A stretch of DNA of 32,376 nt from a virus, in IMG/VR virus record IMGVR_UViG_3300030107_001796, positions 1 through 32,376 of that record; one strand, given 5' to 3'. Shown piece after piece: positions 494 through 30,848 of this stretch; within the stretch, counting starts at the first letter, position 1, and each line of letters starts with the position of its first letter. The position numbers were made by a program, and so were the translations under genes. The notes under the pieces are model-generated. The model was not told where the DNA came from. It searched no databases and saw nothing but the letters and a program-made list of their open reading frames with translations.

Positions 494-1531
494 TTAAGCT
501 ACGAACTTGATTTCACCGTGATATTGTTGCGGTCCGAAATCAAAAGCCATTTCCATATAAACAGCTTTAGCTATTCTTGCGTAGTCATCTTGATCAACGT
601 CTCTTACAAACATAGTTCCATATCCTGGAATGTTAAGGAAGACTGGCTTAATGAAAGCCAAGTCAACGATATAACTCTTGTTTGCAGGTAGATAATCAGA
701 TAGAGCAACGCCAATAGATCCGAATGGAGTAACAAGTGTATCTATGTTCACACCACCAATATTTCTTTCTCTTGGTAGGATTCCATAATTTTGTGTTCCA
801 GAAGCTGCTGTTCCCTTAATCATTTCTTTATTAAGAGCCATTAATTGCGCAGGACTCACGAAGAGTACTGGTTGCTTCATAGGAGCGCCATTTTCATACA
901 TTGTCTGCATAAGGTTTGCTACTGCTGTCCATGACAGTACTTGGTTGGAACCAGAACCATCACCACTAGAGTCGTGATATTCCCAGTTACCGCCTGTCAA
1001 GTTGACGTGTTCTGCAAATCCTCTCATCTGTCTTGGATTACCATCAGAACCATCATTGAAAGCGGCATTCCATGCTGCCCATTCAACTTTTTTAGCTACT
1101 GTTTCCAGTATAAGTTCCATTTGATATGCCAATTCGTCTGATATCGGATTGCTGCCAGCTAATGATAATTTATCAATGCTGTTTTTGTAATTAGCTTCAA
1201 GATCAAAAGGCACGATCTCACCACTTGCTGCTTGCGCTGTGTAAGTAACCTGTGCTGCCTCATGGAAAATTTGAAGTACGCCCTGTTGGGAGCTTCTGCT
1301 TCTTCCTGAATAGTTTGGTTGCCCACCTTCGTCATCTGGTGTTACAGATGATACAGTTGCATTGTCTTGTGTTTGGAACTGGAAGAAAGTAGCGTTTGTT
1401 ACTACTCCACCGTTCAAGCCACCTGACGCAGCTAGTAAAGGAGTTCTGTGAGGAGTGATCTTGAATAATTCACCAGTAAAGTTATTAATATTACTGGTTA
1501 CAATAGGGTTTGCACCTGATATTGCTGCCAT
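494..1531 (-). CDS. Major capsid protein, HK97 fold, SU10-like family
   Basis: The 345-residue product forms the icosahedral shell. The N-terminal segment (FKITPHRTPLLAAS, then a strand ending in FFQFQTQDNA), the central helical EANYKNSIDKLSLAGSNPIS region, and the C-terminal half with VLFVSPAQLMALN, VDTLVTPFG-like and RIAKAVYMEMAFDFGP segments match the pattern of the SU10/DUF5309 group of HK97-fold capsid proteins. The length of about 345 residues is normal for that group. The scaffold gene lies immediately upstream and a decoration-type gene downstream, the standard order. GGAGAGG lies upstream of ATG 1531. I saw no N-terminal extension suggesting a fused scaffold or protease. Confidence 0.85.
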   Translation of the reverse strand: MAAISGANPIVTSNINNFTGELFKITPHRTPLLAASGGLNGGVVTNATFFQFQTQDNATVSSVTPDDEGGQPNYSGRSRSSQQGVLQIFHEAAQVTYTAQAASGEIVPFDLEANYKNSIDKLSLAGSNPISDELAYQMELILETVAKKVEWAAWNAAFNDGSDGNPRQMRGFAEHVNLTGGNWEYHDSSGDGSGSNQVLSWTAVANLMQTMYENGAPMKQPVLFVSPAQLMALNKEMIKGTAASGTQNYGILPRERNIGGVNIDTLVTPFGSIGVALSDYLPANKSYIVDLAFIKPVFLNIPGYGTMFVRDVDQDDYARIAKAVYMEMAFDFGPQQYHGEIKFVA

Positions 1532-1568
1532 ATTCTATTTATCCTCTCCCGACAATTAAGTCGAAATA

Positions 1569-12300: not shown

Positions 12301-14758
12301 GTCTTCTTTGTCTAGCTTTTTTTGTCATAGCGCCTCTGTATAGTTGATTAAACAAAGTATCGTAATGTAAGTGAGACGCTTCTCTTACAAATCCATCATC
12401 AAAATATTTATCTAATAATTGTGGGTTTGTTTCTTTTCTTGCTTGTGCGTCTGTTTTTCTAATAATATCCATTGGGTGAACACCAGGTTTTTTTCTTCTC
12501 CTACCTTCTCTGTATGCACCACCAAATAAGAAATCGTTATTAGCTGCACCATATCTACGTGATGAAGCTGCCTGCCATTCAATAGCGTCCTTTAATGGAT
12601 CTCCTTTTAAGTCTGTAAACTTAACACCTTTTTGAGTCCATCGTTTAGCTTCTTTAGAACCTTGTTTCCTAATCATACCTAAACTTAATAAACTTAAAGG
12701 TCTTGAAAAGATATTGTCATATCCTCGTGTATACATACGTAACTGCTCTTCACCAACTACACGTAGTAACCAAGCACCTCTTAACAAAACAAAAGGTTTC
12801 CAGAAGTCTGAATAATAACTATCAATAAGTTTAGACATTGTTCCTGCTTCTATTGATTTATTTACATTTTTAAATAAACCTGGTGCTTTAGCTCTCATAA
12901 TAGAAACTGTATTCATAGCTTTAGCAAGTTGACCAGGATCTGGCAAAGGTATTGTCCTGTTAATAAATTCTGTTAACAAGTGTGGATCTGGGTTTACATA
13001 AGTCTTTCCATCAATAACTACTGATCCTAATTTAGCTCCTGGATTAGCCACATTGTTTCCTGTTACAGAATCTATAAAGTATGCTCTCATTTCTGGAAGG
13101 TAGCCTTCAAATAATTGATTAAAAGTACTTGCTACTTCTTTATTGACACCATAATTTTCTACTAAGTCATCTCCAACGTATGTAACCATATCTTTAACAA
13201 CATTAAATAATCCTGTTTGATCTCCGTCTTCTAACCTTATAACTCTATTTAATATTTGATTTTTAGCTACATTGTCTATTGTTGTTTGATCCATAAACAT
13301 TTTTATATTTTCAGTAGCGTCATCTAACTGTTCTGAATCAACATATCTGTATGGAAATTCACTTGCGTAAGTAGAAACTATTCTTGCTGTTCTATTAGGA
13401 CTATCCATAAGTTTTGTCTTTAAAACTTTCTTAGCTCCAAACAATGCACCAGTTCCTTGTGGTACTGCCTTTGTTCCTACAAGTGCTTCAGTTGCTCCTC
13501 CTAAAAATCTACCAATAGCACCTACTGTTGGCTTTGCTTGACCAAATGCTCCACCTGGATCTCCTAAAATGTCTGTTAAAAACTGTCCCATCTCTAAGAA
13601 TTTTTCATCTTTTGTTTTATTTAAGTCTTGTGATATATCCATAAATTGAGCAATAACTTGTCTGTCTTTAATTCCTGTAAGCTCCATAAATTTATTTACA
13701 TCTGTAAGTCCTGCAAAATAATCCATAAGTCTTCTACCACCAGGATCTTTTGCTAAGTAATCAGATACTGACCTACTAGATATTATTGGTAATCCCCAAC
13801 CTTTTTCTGAAGCTCCTATTAAATCTTTTTGTGCTTTAGTTAATTTATCTGGACTTACCTTTTTTAATTCTTTAATTAAATAATCTGGAGCTTTTAATGT
13901 TCTTGCACCTTTAGTTATAAACTTTAAACCAAGAGAAGCATAGTTTGCAGGATCTAAAAATAATGCTTTTCCTGCGTCTAATACTCCAGAAACAACATTA
14001 AATGTTCTAGTGTTTGGTTCTGCAACATTAATAGCAACAGATCTTCCAAGTGATATTTGAGTATCTCCATACCTACCTTCCATTTGAAAGTTAGGATTAT
14101 CTTCCTGCGCTCTTCTATCTATTTGTGTAATAGGAGATCCTAGATAATTTTGTATAATTTGTGAAGCTCTTTGTGAATCCATACCAGATTTAATCATGTA
14201 TTGATATTCATCATAAAATTTTGAGTTAGGATTATCTGGATCAAATACTTCTGACTGTGGTAAGAAACCTTCTCCTATGTTTACTGACTTACCTTTTTGT
14301 AATTGTTGAATAGCTTGTTTAACAGTAGAACTACCACTCTGTTTATATGCTTCTCTAAAAGATAACTCATCTGCATTCTTACCAAAGTTTGCAGCTATAA
14401 AAGAGTTTATTGGTCTATCGACTGTTGTTCTATATAAATCTTCTAAACCAAGAAATCCAAGTCTTACACCTGCTTGCAAAGGATCTGTAACTCTATCTAA
14501 TACTGTTTTTGAATTACTCTCTGCAATAGTTTTAGATATTTCATTAAGAACTGTAGCTTCTGGTTTAACTTGTAATGTTGTTAAAGCTGTAATAACATCT
14601 GGTGAAAAATTAGGATACGCTTTTGAAATAGCACTAGCTCTTCTAGCGTCATCTACACTTACAGAACGTTTAGCTTTTTTATATGTTGCTTGTCTTGCCT
14701 GTATCTCTTTATATAATTCTTGTTCCGATACTGGATTGTCTCTATTGAAAGTAACCAT
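9347..14758 (-). CDS. Giant virion-module protein (1803 aa), probably internal or ejection protein
   Basis: This single frame covers one sixth of the window. It starts MVTFNRDNPVSEQELYKEIQ and shows many helical, basic segments. About residue 660 a conserved-looking aromatic stretch (FWKPFVLLRGAWLLRVVGEE, then QLRMYTRG) precedes a basic region with YREGRRRKKPGVHP. Around 1200-1330 long charged helices suggest coiled coils. A short hydrophobic stretch with EIVPGIGPAVAIPASFFVN lies near residue 1450. I found no lytic transglycosylase, protease or polymerase motif. It does not look like a tape measure, which would have long uniform helices and repeats. Position after the portal and before the scaffold fits a DNA ejection or internal core protein, by analogy with large podovirus proteins such as T7 gp16. 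Confidence 0.6.
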   Translation of the reverse strand: MVTFNRDNPVSEQELYKEIQARQATYKKAKRSVSVDDARRASAISKAYPNFSPDVITALTTLQVKPEATVLNEISKTIAESNSKTVLDRVTDPLQAGVRLGFLGLEDLYRTTVDRPINSFIAANFGKNADELSFREAYKQSGSSTVKQAIQQLQKGKSVNIGEGFLPQSEVFDPDNPNSKFYDEYQYMIKSGMDSQRASQIIQNYLGSPITQIDRRAQEDNPNFQMEGRYGDTQISLGRSVAINVAEPNTRTFNVVSGVLDAGKALFLDPANYASLGLKFITKGARTLKAPDYLIKELKKVSPDKLTKAQKDLIGASEKGWGLPIISSRSVSDYLAKDPGGRRLMDYFAGLTDVNKFMELTGIKDRQVIAQFMDISQDLNKTKDEKFLEMGQFLTDILGDPGGAFGQAKPTVGAIGRFLGGATEALVGTKAVPQGTGALFGAKKVLKTKLMDSPNRTARIVSTYASEFPYRYVDSEQLDDATENIKMFMDQTTIDNVAKNQILNRVIRLEDGDQTGLFNVVKDMVTYVGDDLVENYGVNKEVASTFNQLFEGYLPEMRAYFIDSVTGNNVANPGAKLGSVVIDGKTYVNPDPHLLTEFINRTIPLPDPGQLAKAMNTVSIMRAKAPGLFKNVNKSIEAGTMSKLIDSYYSDFWKPFVLLRGAWLLRVVGEEQLRMYTRGYDNIFSRPLSLLSLGMIRKQGSKEAKRWTQKGVKFTDLKGDPLKDAIEWQAASSRRYGAANNDFLFGGAYREGRRRKKPGVHPMDIIRKTDAQARKETNPQLLDKYFDDGFVREASHLHYDTLFNQLYRGAMTKKARQRRLEEFVEGSSAKAQEIIEAYGKGGPTYKERMSTAGGRYAYAESIVARVNQLAGGQFSQDLDVLNSLSKKIKIDDLDFTKSPFPLSVEKTANVNLFNSLVRNRLNDLDPKRFFDKEGKQSLTWDDFFDSTYNGDKDVYNKVKRLLMDEEGAYFNDLPDVMAVGKTDFVDSEGKAEFYTNKAFDFLMGQRTDNASRSPVFRQAYWRAVYDMLPYMSGKMRQIMLDGGEYTLEGKTVKIAGARNSNLPEENLLSSIKADIGVPSSKLRKKDTEINMNMFEREVQKLNARDTKYGKGYEDVDAEHLAFQEEYAKRKKAIEDRIDNINDRYQPLEDEIFEKHSDMDYTADWLDTFEEIDPKLYQKIKKIDDDVEIEEKKLELLKEKFKEGLAISERKFGFTDKYGDADMVDRIAKARALEETKSLLYDLTKRKKLTYNLRGIFPFGEAYVEIMTTWARLIKENPEILRRGQVTVNALRNDNVFSPVEGEGFLGEDEVTGEEVFYYPMIDDLVSDGLFGKDREVGVRLPGYAGSLNLALEIVPGIGPAVAIPASFFVNSSPSFDEAKKVMFPYGLPDIRSAGDLITAAGVPAWLKNTIRAGYAYNEDVGQNEMTRIAANTTIDVYRVLKANGSDDRSPEQQELLLKEARSIARNLTLIKAFSQFVGPTGLNPRFDIGNDKNGGAVYSMQILSDRYRELLETPPVDPVTGKFLYAPGDNYSATKYFTDEFGFNPIDIATPKTVVIEPRPVDERGVEFQKDNPDLFEEFTFTAHYAVPKGGGGPFDYEAYVRTIANEQREPLTPEEWLGKRNQKLGEFFMEEKRITTLQTYDITDPYQNALRTKQLQLDRDIARLKYPGFDSTVPGLPQTATLDMQFDEIQRWSNSPKMSATAVGRDVEVVLGVIKRLEEESVSIGLSKDGWKTSRGMLGHRQRLRDIIGRLINNNPEFSIISERLLLPLFQERYDFLEDLQYDYDTLKEYGSYLPKELTEEF

Positions 14759-20898: not shown

Positions 20899-21109
20899 TT
20901 TGCATGCTCCCTTCTAAATCTTTTTTAAACATTCTTACTGCGTCCCGCCTTCCATATCCCATATATTTCATTTTAAAATCACTATCCATGTGAGATATTT
21001 CTAACGTACCAGACGGATAGTACTCATACATTATATATAAATTGGTAGATTTAATTAGTTTAGGATAATTTGTATATAGTTTTTTATTTAGATCGTTTTG
21101 CTTTTTCAT
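20891..21109 (-). CDS. Small unknown protein (72 aa)
   Basis: A compact 72-residue product with a Lys/Asn-rich start and a core of strands (TNLYIMYEYYPSGTLEISHM), then a basic helix (GYGRRDAVRMFKKDLEGSM). The layout, sheet followed by helix, is typical of small phage proteins of unknown role. It overlaps the upstream gene by 1 base and the downstream one by 8 bases, so it is translationally coupled. No motif recognised. Confidence 0.6.
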   Translation of the reverse strand: MKKQNDLNKKLYTNYPKLIKSTNLYIMYEYYPSGTLEISHMDSDFKMKYMGYGRRDAVRMFKKDLEGSMQNV

Positions 21110-21708
21110 TAGTTGTCACCATTCCAAACATAATATTTATTCATATATTCTTCTATGCGATAACTATCCTTCATCATTCTTATTACTTTTTTATCATCAA
21201 TGTATGGCTCGATAGTATCCCATAGACTTGGGTTTTCTATTTCTATATTCCTAAGTCCTAGATTATCCATACCAACATCTAATAAATGCTCGTCAACATC
21301 TTGCATGTAGTCAAATGATACAACAGAGCAATGAAAATTCTCCCATGTGTCAGAATCTAAGTCCGCAGAATAAAAATAATTATTTCTAAAAACTGCAAGC
21401 GCTCCAACGTCTTCAACGTCACTTAATTTTTTTACTAGATTAAAAATTAATTCTGGTTGGTCGTACTCTTCAACTTTTATACATTCATAATCGGAAATAA
21501 AGACTTCTTCTCCGTCACATAGATTAGGCATATTTCCTGCCTTCTTGTGTATCTCTTCAATACTCATGGCTTTTTTTATTTCTTTTAATGTTGTCTTCTC
21601 GTTTACTTGGTACCAATAGAATGTTAAATATCCCATGTTGTAACAAGCCAAACAAGTCGGACAAATAGAGAAAGACTTTTGCACTTCTTCTTTTTCTTTA
21701 ACTCCCAT
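21109..21708 (-). CDS. Unknown protein with N-terminal cysteines (199 aa)
   Basis: The N terminus carries CPTCLAC at about residues 18-24, a possible half zinc site, with another cysteine (NLCDGEEVF) near residue 64. The rest is acidic with alternating strands and helices (SDVEDVGALAVFRNNYFY and NIEIENPSLWDTIEPYI). The start lies inside the end of the upstream 57-residue gene. I recognise no family. As it is one of the largest proteins of this part of the operon, it may carry an enzyme or inhibitor function, but nothing in the sequence shows which. Confidence 0.6.
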   Translation of the reverse strand: MGVKEKEEVQKSFSICPTCLACYNMGYLTFYWYQVNEKTTLKEIKKAMSIEEIHKKAGNMPNLCDGEEVFISDYECIKVEEYDQPELIFNLVKKLSDVEDVGALAVFRNNYFYSADLDSDTWENFHCSVVSFDYMQDVDEHLLDVGMDNLGLRNIEIENPSLWDTIEPYIDDKKVIRMMKDSYRIEEYMNKYYVWNGDN

Positions 21709-21871: not shown

Positions 21872-21916
21872 TTTTCCTGTCTCCTTCCAAAGAGATTTAA
21901 TTAGTACTTAATATAT

Positions 21917-28053: not shown

Positions 28054-28293
28054 TTAGTCGCCACCACGTTCTGATCGTACAAACACATAGTGAATAATAT
28101 CACCCCAGTTTTCAAAGTTATATATAAAACAGTTGTTTGCCTTCAAATAATCGTGAAGTTCTTTTATACTGTCAATATACATAGGACTTGCGTTCCTTAT
28201 AACAACAAATCCTTTGCCAGTTTTAGCAACTGACTCTCTTAGTTCTGATAACATAAAGTCATCGTCTTGTACGGTAGTAATTTTTGCAGTCAT
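28054..28293 (-). CDS. First gene of small-gene operon (79 aa), unknown
   Basis: GGAGG lies 4 bases before ATG 28293. The product is an alpha/beta protein (LSELRESVAKTGKGFVVIRN, then YIDSIKELHDYLKANNCFIY, then DIIHYVFVRSERGGD). It is the first gene after the promoter island, so it should be made early and at high level, as expected for a host take-over protein. No motif recognised. Confidence 0.6.
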   Translation of the reverse strand: MTAKITTVQDDDFMLSELRESVAKTGKGFVVIRNASPMYIDSIKELHDYLKANNCFIYNFENWGDIIHYVFVRSERGGD

Positions 28294-28332
28294 TACACCT
28301 CCAATATTAAGTATATACTATAAATACAGATT

Positions 28333-28360
28333 TTTATAGATTTTAAAAGTTTTTTCACAA
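28333..28360 (-). promoter_or_regulatory. Promoter for the small-gene operon, divergent from the first small RNA
   Basis: On the minus strand TTGTGA (28360-28355), a 16 base spacer and TATAAA (28338-28333) resemble a sigma70 promoter, starting near 28326. It shares its -35 bases with the plus-strand promoter at 28354-28383, so polymerases would compete for the same site. Confidence 0.45.
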
Positions 28361-28383
28361 ATACACAAATTATGTGCTATACT
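28354..28383 (+). promoter_or_regulatory. Plus-strand promoter of small RNA 1
   Basis: TTCACA at 28354-28359, an 18 base spacer and TATACT at 28378-28383, with TG one base ahead of the -10 (extended -10, TGCTATACT). It points away from every gene nearby. Confidence 0.6.
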
Positions 28384-28389
28384 AAAGTC

Positions 28390-28480
28390 ATAATAGGAAA
28401 CAAGTATATTCGCAAGAATAAACAGGAAACAAGTTATAAACAGGAGATCCTGTAGATTTATCTGCAGGATTTTTTGTTTT
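28390..28480 (+). ncRNA. Putative small RNA 1 with two AGGAAACAAGT motifs
   Basis: A promoter upstream and a terminator at 28447-28480 define a transcript of about 90 bases on the plus strand. It has no reading frame. AGGAAACAAGT occurs at 28395-28405 and 28424-28434, flanking a hairpin TATTC-GCAA-GAATA (28407-28420) with a GNRA tetraloop. Both motifs should be single-stranded. AGGAAAC is the exact complement of GTTTCCT in the loop of small RNA 2. The repeated (A/U)-A-GGA sites also resemble CsrA-binding sites, so it could instead be a protein sponge. Its function is inference. Confidence 0.55.
28447..28480 (+). terminator. Rho-independent terminator of small RNA 1
   Basis: ATCCTGTAGA and TCTGCAGGAT form a 10 bp stem with one G-U pair and a 4 base loop (28447-28470), followed by TTTTTTGTTTT. 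On the plus strand this is a textbook terminator. Confidence 0.8.
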
Positions 28481-28484
28481 ATGT

Positions 28485-28524
28485 AAAAAAAAAAGCCGAG
28501 AATCTTTTACGACCTCTCGGCTTT
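28485..28524 (-). terminator. Strong terminator on minus strand (ten U), also paired for plus strand
   Basis: AAAGCCGAGA and TCTCGGCTTT form a 10 bp stem with a 13 base loop. On the minus strand ten T residues follow (28494-28485). It lies only about 45 bases downstream of the minus promoter at 28575-28602, so it ends a very short transcript or acts as a leader attenuator for the small-gene operon. Confidence 0.8.
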
Positions 28525-28568
28525 CTTCACATACTTTATCTTGAATATGGCATATATTTAGATAAGTT
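28485..28568 (-). ncRNA. Putative short minus-strand RNA or attenuated leader
   Basis: The promoter at 28575-28602 and the terminator just above bracket a transcript of about 84 bases with no gene in it. The first 45 bases are A/U-rich and unstructured; the rest is the terminator hairpin. It may be a stable small RNA, or a leader whose termination is overcome by an antiterminator so that polymerase reads on into the operon at 28293. Confidence 0.4.
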
Positions 28569-28574
28569 ATATTT

Positions 28575-28602
28575 ATATTACAGAGTTTATTTCTATTGTC
28601 AA
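28575..28602 (-). promoter_or_regulatory. Strong minus-strand promoter in the intergenic island
   Basis: On the minus strand a perfect TTGACA (28602-28597), a 16 base spacer and TAATAT (28580-28575). It follows the hairpin at 28606-28642, which would stop read-through from the lysis genes. Transcription would start near 28568. Confidence 0.65.
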
Positions 28603-28605
28603 GTA

Positions 28606-28642
28606 AACAAATGCCACCTCACGGGGTGGCTTTATTTGTTTT
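28606..28642. terminator. Bidirectional hairpin terminator
   Basis: GCCACC at 28613-28618 pairs with GGTGGC at 28625-28630, extended by AACAAA on one side and TTTATTTGTT on the other. U-rich tails follow on both strands, so it can stop transcription coming from either side. Confidence 0.65.
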
Positions 28643-28690
28643 GAATCCATACTATGGCTTCGTATTTGATTACGTATTTATCATAACATT

Positions 28691-28722
28691 AAAAAAGGAC
28701 TGGCGCAAACCAGTCCTTTTTT
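28691..28722. terminator. Bidirectional terminator after metallophosphoesterase operon
   Basis: AAAAAAGGACTGG and CCAGTCCTTTTTT form a 13 bp stem with a 6 base loop. There are six T residues on both strands. It would end the lysis-block transcript and isolate small RNA 2 from upstream plus-strand transcription. Confidence 0.85.
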
Positions 28723-28734
28723 GTGGAAGGAGAC

Positions 28735-28752
28735 AGTACTCATAAGGTGAGT
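28735..28752. repeat. Inverted repeat upstream of small RNA 2
   Basis: TACTCA and TGAGTA are perfect 6 bp arms around TAAGG, about 30 bases before the -10 of small RNA 2. The preceding GGAAGGAGACAG is identical to the ribosome site of the gene at 21871, but no start codon follows at a usable distance. An operator is possible. Confidence 0.35.
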
Positions 28753-28776
28753 ATTGCCTATAACCAATATACCTCA

Positions 28777-28785
28777 TGCTATAAT
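28777..28785 (+). promoter_or_regulatory. Extended -10 promoter of small RNA 2
   Basis: TGCTATAAT is a perfect extended -10 element, and the same TGCTATA core is used by small RNA 1. A TTGCCT lies 20 bases upstream of TATAAT, too far for a good -35, which extended -10 promoters do not need. Confidence 0.6.
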
Positions 28786-28791
28786 TAATGC

Positions 28792-28872
28792 AAGTCATCA
28801 CAATGATAAGGGTTTCCTCCTTTACCTTGATCATTGGCACCAGAGTATTAAGTTATTCTGGTGTGTTCTTTT
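28792..28872 (+). ncRNA. Putative small RNA 2 with anti-Shine-Dalgarno loop
   Basis: The transcript of about 80 bases has two hairpins. The first pairs CAATGAT-AAGG (28801-28811) with CCTT-ATCATTG (28825-28836, one bulged G) and exposes a 13 base loop GTTTCCTCCTTTA. The loop holds CCTCC, the anti-Shine-Dalgarno core, as in the 3' end of 16S rRNA, and GTTTCCT, the exact complement of the two AGGAAAC motifs of small RNA 1. The second hairpin (28838-28863) is the terminator. It could bind GGAGGAA-type ribosome sites such as those before the genes at 3673 and 22608, and be titrated by small RNA 1. Roles are inference. Confidence 0.55.
28838..28872 (+). terminator. Terminator of small RNA 2
   Basis: CACCAGA at 28838-28844 and TCTGGTG at 28857-28863 form a 7 bp stem, followed by TGTTCTTTT. 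It lies just outside the 3' end of the metallophosphoesterase gene, in the opposite direction. Confidence 0.65.
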
Positions 28873-30091
28873 AAACTATCTCTTTGTTATTATGGCCATT
28901 CTTATCAACAACCATAGTCATTACACCTTGCTTAGTTTTCTTACCTGCTTGGTGTTCAAACCATGTAGACTCATCTAGCGCAGGTACTTGGATCCATGTT
29001 CTTCCATCGTGTAATTCACGATGATGATGATAATGCCCAGTCACAAGAATCTGGCTAGATCCTGCATGAAAACCACCAAAGGTTTGATTCTTCCACCAAT
29101 TCATTACCTTAGCTTCTACTCCTCCCCCGAAACCAGTAAGGTGGCCATGAGTAAAACTCATGTTCGTACCACATACGTTAAGTGATAAGTGTGGTTCATC
29201 TGGAATTACAAACTTAATATGTGAATACTGTGGTTTGTCTGCCATGATCTCAGCTATCTGTTCAAATACTTCTAAGTCATAGTTATCCATCTCTCCTGTT
29301 GGGGCCAATCCTTTGCTAATTCTTTTAGTACCATGATTACCTGGTACTGCTCCTACTACAACAACATCAAAGTCTTTAGACCATTCAACTAATGCTTTAG
29401 CTATTAATCTTCTGGCTAATTTCATTTGATTTCTATAGTCAAGCTCTACTCCGTTAGGTCCCATAGCTGTGGGATAGAATCCAACGCACCCTTCTACGAT
29501 GTCACCTAATCCTATTACTGTTAATTGATCGATCTTTACTCCTGCTTTACGTAGGAAATTGTATCTATCACGCACTGTATCTATCTTATCTAAGAACCTT
29601 TCAACTATAGCTTCTGTTCCTCCGCCATCTCTTTTACCTAATTGAAGATCTGATATAGCAACAAAGAATGAAGCAGTTGGATTAGTCTTTTTAGGTTTAG
29701 CTTTACGCTTATAAGATTCAATCCATTTACTTATTTTTTTGTAATCTTCTTTATCTATAGTAGTTTCAGTTGCTACTATCTGAGCTTTAAAAGCCCATGC
29801 TTGTTGTGTCTCACCTTTTCCAATGTTCATATCCCATGTAGATACACGTATAGTATCGTTTAATATGGTGTATTTATTTGGATCAAAACCCCACTCTTTT
29901 AAAAGATCATCAAACTCAGGAGTTGGATTCGTTGTTGCTCTTGAAGTTATAGTACCAGTCTTAGTCTTGTAACTAAATTCTACTCCTGGTTCCCACCCAC
30001 TATTGTGAGTAGCGTCCTCCTTTGTTTCATTGTGCGCTACGTCCTGTTGAACTTCAGTAAGTTTACTTACTTGCGAGTTGTTTTTTCGCAT
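28871..30091 (-). CDS. Calcineurin-like metallophosphoesterase (406 aa)
   Basis: The metal-binding motifs are in order: VAISDLQLGK at residue 148, GLGDIVEG near 195, VPGNHGTKR at 250, FTHGHLTG at 313 and VTGHYHHHRE at 350. The usual DxH of the first motif is DLQ here, as in other phage members with a DxQLGK sequence. The first 140 residues form a separate N-terminal domain without a clear identity. It may be a phosphodiesterase or DNA nuclease related to SbcD/Mre11, but no SbcC-like partner is in the window. It overlaps the holin-like gene by 29 bases and is the last gene of the right-hand block, followed by a strong terminator. Confidence 0.8.
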   Translation of the reverse strand: MRKNNSQVSKLTEVQQDVAHNETKEDATHNSGWEPGVEFSYKTKTGTITSRATTNPTPEFDDLLKEWGFDPNKYTILNDTIRVSTWDMNIGKGETQQAWAFKAQIVATETTIDKEDYKKISKWIESYKRKAKPKKTNPTASFFVAISDLQLGKRDGGGTEAIVERFLDKIDTVRDRYNFLRKAGVKIDQLTVIGLGDIVEGCVGFYPTAMGPNGVELDYRNQMKLARRLIAKALVEWSKDFDVVVVGAVPGNHGTKRISKGLAPTGEMDNYDLEVFEQIAEIMADKPQYSHIKFVIPDEPHLSLNVCGTNMSFTHGHLTGFGGGVEAKVMNWWKNQTFGGFHAGSSQILVTGHYHHHRELHDGRTWIQVPALDESTWFEHQAGKKTKQGVMTMVVDKNGHNNKEIV

Positions 30092-30275: not shown

Positions 30276-30848
30276 CTAACTAATCGGCTTACCTCTGAGT
30301 TTACTATCAATGCGTGTCACTTTTTCGTGAATGCTTCGTAGTGTTTTCTCAAAGTCTTTGTCATTAGAATCAGAAGATACTGCTGTACCATCTAGGTTTA
30401 TCTTGCTGTATTCTATAGTAACTTCTTTGTTTTGAAGTAATTCACTTAATACTTTTGGATAGAATTTTTTATAAGCGTCTCCAGATCCACCAATAAATCC
30501 GTCCTTACCTTTGTCTAAATCCTGTTGAGTCTCTCCAATTAGCAAACAACCTGCCGTATGCTCGTCCGTGTTGCCTTGATGAATTAAGATATACTGAAAT
30601 CCTGGTACGTCCATTACTTGTAGCATACCTTTGTGCATTGTCGGATACTTCCTGTTATAACGATCATTAAATCCGCCAACGGTTCTTAGTTCTATTTTGT
30701 AAGAACCTTCTGGTATACATGTCTCGCTGTGGACCTTGACTTCTTGATATTGGTCTTCCAAAGTAAATGCTTCAAAATATCCGTTAACAAAAAGCATACC
30801 GTTGGTTGCGTCTTTGCCAAATTGTGTGCGTACTACCTGTAGTTTCAT
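30276..30848 (-). CDS. DUF5675 protein, L,D-transpeptidase-like (190 aa)
   Basis: The first 150 residues match DUF5675: MKLQVVRTQFG, FTLEDQYQEVKVHSETCIPE, VPGFQYILIHQGNTDEHTAG and CLLIG. Histidine 90 and Cys101 resemble the His and Cys pair of YkuD-type L,D-transpeptidases, so it may act on peptidoglycan. A C-terminal extension of about 40 residues (SSDSNDKDFEKTLRSIHEKV and so on) is a short charged helix. The start overlaps the upstream zinc-ribbon ORF by ATGA. Location between two small membrane proteins suggests a lysis or cell-wall role. Confidence 0.75.
   Translation of the reverse strand: MKLQVVRTQFGKDATNGMLFVNGYFEAFTLEDQYQEVKVHSETCIPEGSYKIELRTVGGFNDRYNRKYPTMHKGMLQVMDVPGFQYILIHQGNTDEHTAGCLLIGETQQDLDKGKDGFIGGSGDAYKKFYPKVLSELLQNKEVTIEYSKINLDGTAVSSDSNDKDFEKTLRSIHEKVTRIDSKLRGKPIS

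Follow-up and report, generated by a model that had tools for sequence, protein, structure and literature searches.

The intergenic island between the exonuclease gene and the gene that starts at 28293 carries a cluster of small RNAs, whose existence as a conserved unit between two genes is well supported and whose conservation extends to at least 64 contigs of uncultured viruses. From the anatomy, covariation and complementarity of its members, we infer that the island is probably a phage cassette of trans-acting small RNAs, which would be transcribed during infection, pair with messages and repress the initiation of their translation in a timed manner. The initial annotation of this DNA had described two plus-strand units, each with an extended -10 and a terminator. 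All motifs of these two units, RNA 1 and RNA 2, are where they had been placed, but the inventory was incomplete, missing RNA 3 and RNA 4 on the minus strand.

The window analysed here, which is the whole stretch of 32,376 nt (32 kb of a 40,468-base virus record; GC 34%), stems from a marine bacterial virus and contains genes for head, terminase, portal and endolysin proteins, and the exonuclease gene (phrog_284), at 28871-30091, adjoins the island. In named records, the relatives of this exonuclease and of the capsid protein (best identity about 34%) are mostly found in phages of actinobacteria, which makes an actinobacterial host our guess; no tRNA genes were found that could serve as a further clue. 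Neither is there near-identical DNA to the region among named phage records, and a distant-mode search with the 201-nt module from L110 returned short chance matches and nothing more. Among the other products of the window, a 199-aa protein (21109-21708, minus strand) matches the Pfam family ArdA (antirestriction; E 1.7e-8) and a 190-aa protein (30276-30848, minus strand) matches DUF5675. The gene beyond the island (start 28293, minus strand) has a predicted promoter at 28294-28320; fewer than 25 nt separate the end of the -10, TATACT, from the start codon, so that the mRNA of this gene would start almost at the Shine-Dalgarno sequence TTGGAGGTGTAATG. On the other side of the cassette, in L002, L018, L019 and L021, a small Cys/His-rich ORF is seemingly inserted between the cassette and the end of the exonuclease gene, which is apparently duplicated on each side of the insertion.

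Judged by the comparison of relatives, RNA 2 is certainly a real, conserved structured element. It occupies positions 28792-28872 of the plus strand behind an extended -10, TGCTATAAT (28777-28785), and comprises a short leader, a hairpin (28801-28836) and a terminator (28836-28872), with a length of about 70-85 nt in most relatives. Hairpin and terminator make up the whole of the predicted fold, in which the apical loop is mostly unpaired. This loop of 13 nt, GUUUCCUCCUUUA (DNA GTTTCCTCCTTTA; 28812-28824), contains CCUCCUUU, the sequence of the 3' end of bacterial 16S rRNA known as the anti-Shine-Dalgarno (aSD). The GTTTCCT at 28812-28818, which had been annotated as exposed in the loop, does lie within it, and the corresponding GUUUCCU is the first half of a wider invariant unit. 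Relatives were gathered via the neighbouring exonuclease, without reference to the loop, and only those with enough downstream DNA were counted: the 13-nt loop is exact in all 64 relatives with 82-100% identical exonucleases and absent from the eight with 63-65% identical ones. For the stem, relatives were combined with pattern scans that required the loop, yielding 15 distinct hairpins in which 91.7% of the cells are paired and double-sided, compensatory changes affect 7 of the 8 pairs, with a covariation score of 0.795 (shuffles, 0.288; slid partners, 0.21 at most).

No conserved extended match to this loop was found among the phage genes. The ribosome-binding site of a 72-aa gene in G004 (at 13895, plus strand) carries TAAAGGAGGAAA, which is complementary to the RNA 2 loop over 12 nt; we rejected it as a conserved target, given that the matches in orthologues of this 72-73-aa gene are shorter or absent. 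In bacterial chromosomes, the 16-mer that was scanned for occurs in at least 119 stretches spread over phyla, almost none of which form a strong hairpin.

RNA 1 (28390-28480, plus strand) is restricted to the window's own clade. Its predicted promoter, at 28354-28383, consists of TTCACA (28354-28359), an 18-nt spacer and the extended -10 TGTGCTATACT (28373-28383), and is 92-94% identical in L002-L004; the RNA itself contains, in this order, a AGGAAACAAG repeat, a GNRA hairpin, a second AGGAAACAAG repeat and a terminator (28438-28476). The two copies of AGGAAAC (28395-28401 and 28424-28430) were correctly annotated as flanking a GNRA hairpin, namely a GCAA hairpin at 28407-28420. Among the related phages, RNA 1 was found in four genomes, those of the window, L002, L003 and L004/L107. 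Between the window and L003/L004 it is 96% identical, compared to 69% for the adjacent gene and about 50% for RNA 2, which implies that RNA 1 is either under strong constraint or was recently exchanged.

The reading offered in the initial annotation was that RNA 1 acts as a sponge and titrates RNA 2, its two AGGAAAC sites pairing with the GUUUCCU of the loop. In line with such a role, both AGGAAACAAG copies are predicted to be unpaired, with a probability of about 0.83-0.90, and do not differ between the four genomes, the complementarity to RNA 2 is kept in these four, RNA 1 is conserved far above its adjacent gene, and two 7-nt sites complementary to the loop are present in just 0.6% of shuffled RNA 1 sequences, a number obtained post hoc. 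On the other hand, the predicted duplex of RNA 1 with the loop (-13.1 kcal/mol) is of ordinary strength: 11% of shuffled RNA 1 sequences do at least as well (4% in the case of L004). Cofolding of the full RNAs gains just 0.2-2.3 kcal/mol. Moreover, about 60 relatives that lack RNA 1 share the invariant loop, so RNA 1 cannot be what keeps it constant. This and the share of shuffles that match the duplex speak against the sponge pair as the conserved function. Both the loop and the AGGAAAC motifs are conserved, and since neither side varies, compensatory change between RNA 1 and RNA 2 is not observable. Overall, we consider titration of RNA 2 by RNA 1 unlikely; that RNA 1 is a clade-specific decoy for the aSD RNAs is possible. 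Across the window, AGGAAAC occurs 13 times against 5.5 expected, the other copies not being at predicted ribosome-binding sites, and pairs of AGGAAACAAG in 17 other IMG/VR stretches mostly fall into repeats or into DNA without an RNA 1-like context.

On the opposite strand, RNA 2 is accompanied by RNA 3 (28691-28759, minus strand), which is conserved alongside it and was found in every relative with RNA 2. RNA 3 is composed of a hairpin (28732-28758), a single-stranded CUCCUUCC (28725-28732) and a terminator (28691-28722), and its predicted promoter (28766-28793, minus strand; -35 TTGCAT, -10 TATATT) overlaps that of RNA 2; its -35 is the complement of the RNA 2 -10 region (TTGACATTAATTATA), and its own -10 follows about 17 nt further on (16 in the window). 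While the window has TTGCAT, the -35 reads TTGACA in most relatives. The unpaired CUCCUUCC represents a second aSD motif, replaced in some relatives by CUCCUUAAC or CCUCCAUUG, and the hairpin, the exposed CUCC and the terminator are present in nearly all of 34 representatives. The region was also considered as coding, with a short leader ORF behind GGAAGGAG, and this was rejected on inspection because the frame is not conserved.

The predicted targets of RNA 3 suggest that it may be adapted to the extended ribosome-binding sites of the phage that encodes it. The best one in the window is TGGAAGGAGACAG (21877-21889, minus strand), located at the ribosome-binding site of the gene for a 57-aa protein (start 21871), with 13 complementary nucleotides. 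In G011, which encodes a different RNA 3, three ribosome-binding sites are complementary to the phage's own version over 14, 13 and 12 nt, and in G007, with the variant TTAAGGAG, three match over 11 nt. In all, complementarity of at least 10 nt was found at 14 ribosome-binding sites in seven clade representatives, whose gene-internal windows give at most 0.25 RNA 3 matches per genome; when own and swapped RNA 3 versions are compared, both the number of matches and the mean of the best six are higher for the own version (permutation fractions 0.004 and 0.0008, respectively). We take this tuning as suggestive, not as proof, for the start sites used were predicted by a simple script, three genomes (G003, G004 and G008) lack an RNA 3 target of 10 nt or longer, and part of the matching stems from generic Shine-Dalgarno similarity, any aSD sequence being bound to match some Shine-Dalgarno sites.

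RNA 3 also bears on the idea that the RNA 2 loop acts as a mimic of the 16S rRNA 3' end that binds a ribosomal or another RNA-binding protein, or the ribosome, instead of mRNAs. The invariance of all 13 nt, also outside CCUCCUUU, would fit a protein or structural constraint, as would the lack of a conserved phage mRNA target for RNA 2, but a second aSD motif that is presented in a different manner and comes with matching targets favours base pairing, and we deem such mimicry distinctly unlikely.

RNA 4 (28486-28568, minus strand), found in 23 of 63 relatives, would be directed at a different part of the start signal. It is predicted to be transcribed from a promoter with TTGACA at 28597-28602 and TAATAT at 28575-28580 (minus strand), and has a hairpin with the loop core GCCAUAUUC (28543-28551) and a terminator (28486-28525). 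The complement of this core, GAATATGGC, lies across the start codons of three genes in the window phage, those for the major capsid protein, a 239-aa protein and a 108-aa protein; the predicted target across the capsid start codon, GAATATGGCA (1526-1535, minus strand), recurs at three gene starts, that of the capsid among them. Matches to GAATATGGC, of up to 13 nt, are also located at the starts of the orthologues and of other genes in G003 and G004, and in G000 the motif occurs six times, one of them being RNA 4 itself, against 0.25 expected. G001 and G002 have no RNA 4 yet carry the target motif at two such genes, and the RNA 4 of the window fits its targets less well than the version from G003 would.

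All 63 relatives that were scored carry RNA 2 together with RNA 3, and RNA 2 has the same direction as the exonuclease gene in 60 of these. In the window and its three closest relatives the cassette is inverted, with RNA 2 reversed relative to the exonuclease gene and RNA 4, where present, reversed together with it. That the block is intact in either orientation argues for autonomous transcription units, and for both RNA 2 and RNA 3 an independent promoter and an intrinsic terminator are predicted and conserved. Terminators are enriched (8 observed versus 2.9 in shuffles), while promoter-like matches are uninformative by number in such AT-rich DNA (35 observed versus 31.9 expected from shuffles). 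Between RNA 4 and RNA 3 there is a further terminator-like hairpin (28605-28641) that can be read on both strands and is missing from L003/L004. Rfam returned no match at the gathering threshold for the island, all sub-threshold matches falling far below their thresholds.

Instead of encoding trans-acting regulators, the dense intergenic hairpins could act at the DNA or RNA level in replication, packaging or transcription termination, for instance as origin hairpins, pRNA-like elements or attenuators, and this would agree with the exactly one copy of RNA 2 that a covariance model detected in each near-complete genome searched. However, no change in GC skew is seen at the island, a separate promoter and terminator are predicted for every unit, and the complementarity to Shine-Dalgarno sequences and start codons would have to be a coincidence, which together render this explanation improbable. 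The notion that a small gene on the minus strand uses the complement of the RNA 2 loop (GGTAAAGGAGGAAACC) as its ribosome-binding site is largely refuted and, to us, scarcely credible: a short ORF is present and AAAGGAGG matches the Shine-Dalgarno sequence perfectly, but there is no start codon at the usual spacing, the DNA downstream of the motif differs among relatives and has no shared reading frame, the orientation to the neighbouring genes is reversed in most relatives, and the covariation of the stem is left unexplained.

For the repression of translation initiation, which we favour, RNA 2 on the plus strand and RNA 3 on the minus strand would be divergent transcripts of sigma-70-type promoters that overlap, each ending at its intrinsic terminator. 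RNA 2 would offer CCUCCUUU within its invariant 13-nt apical loop and RNA 3 would offer CUCCUUCC between its own hairpin and its terminator, and by pairing with Shine-Dalgarno sequences both would keep ribosomes off. As the two RNAs expose the complement of the ribosome-binding signal, they probably shut down the translation of chosen messages. These messages may differ, with RNA 3 acting on extended ribosome-binding sites of its own phage and RNA 2 on Shine-Dalgarno sites that are generic, strong and A-rich and may belong to the host, for which AAAGGAGGAAA is a candidate strong consensus; for a loop that is invariant and has no conserved phage target, generic strong sites, possibly those of the host, are the better guess. 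Where present, RNA 4 would add a loop against the start region of the capsid gene and other structural genes, and RNA 1 would be a clade-specific addition, possibly a decoy. A more elaborate version, which we put forward tentatively, is a cassette in which each RNA complements one part of the start signal, namely the generic Shine-Dalgarno sequence (RNA 2), the phage-tuned extended Shine-Dalgarno sequence (RNA 3) and the start codon of structural genes (RNA 4), and which might set the timing of early and of late protein synthesis; RNA 2 would in addition dampen translation in the host, and RNA 1 would serve as an extra decoy.

The closest parallels that we considered are the alpha-r14 or 'cuckoo' sRNAs of alphaproteobacteria, including NfeR1 of Sinorhizobium meliloti, whose aSD loops on variable stems silence mRNAs through occlusion of the ribosome-binding site (PMC10746234, PMC3927594). 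RNA 2 likewise has a conserved, unpaired aSD loop on a variable stem, as seen in its 15 distinct hairpins. Occlusion is shown or predicted for alpha-r14 sRNAs and would likewise be the action of RNA 2 and RNA 3. There are clear differences: alpha-r14 sRNAs have three or four aSD hairpins per RNA and the loop CCUCCUCCC, in contrast to the single aSD hairpin with terminator and the loop GUUUCCUCCUUUA of RNA 2; they are encoded in alphaproteobacterial genomes and not in a virus record; and the cassette adds a divergent partner, RNA 3, with a linear aSD motif, and has no Rfam match. With one hairpin, a different loop and a phage origin, the cassette does not belong to alpha-r14. The c4 antisense RNA of phages P1/P7 is also a small RNA of phage origin that blocks translation with loops that pair around a ribosome-binding site (PMC12197685), but its described target is one phage mRNA (ant), whereas the cassette predicts several targets for separately promoted RNAs. 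AgvB and AsxR, as small phage RNAs that bind another small RNA, provide a model for RNA 1 (PMC12559287, PMC12197685). They differ in that they antagonise host sRNAs, whereas RNA 1 would target a phage sRNA in a pairing that is statistically unconvincing. No paper describing this cassette was found in a literature search of partial coverage.

To our knowledge, prophages of a small number of laboratory hosts have so far been the main source of phage-encoded small RNAs. The cassette described here is compact, combines multiple RNAs and has predicted targets within the phage's own messages, and the covariation of RNA 2 is strong enough to define a new RNA family. If the proposed function is true, infection programmes of environmental phages would be timed by base-pairing RNAs directed against the translation start signal.

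The loop GTTTCCTCCTTTA was also observed on strong but unrelated stems in L105, L113, L129, L155 and L210, phages that are partly GC-rich, and in the bacterial genome L337. The stem that bears it in L105 measures about 11 bp, and a T-run comes after the hairpin in L155/L210. These hairpins are possibly convergent aSD hairpins.
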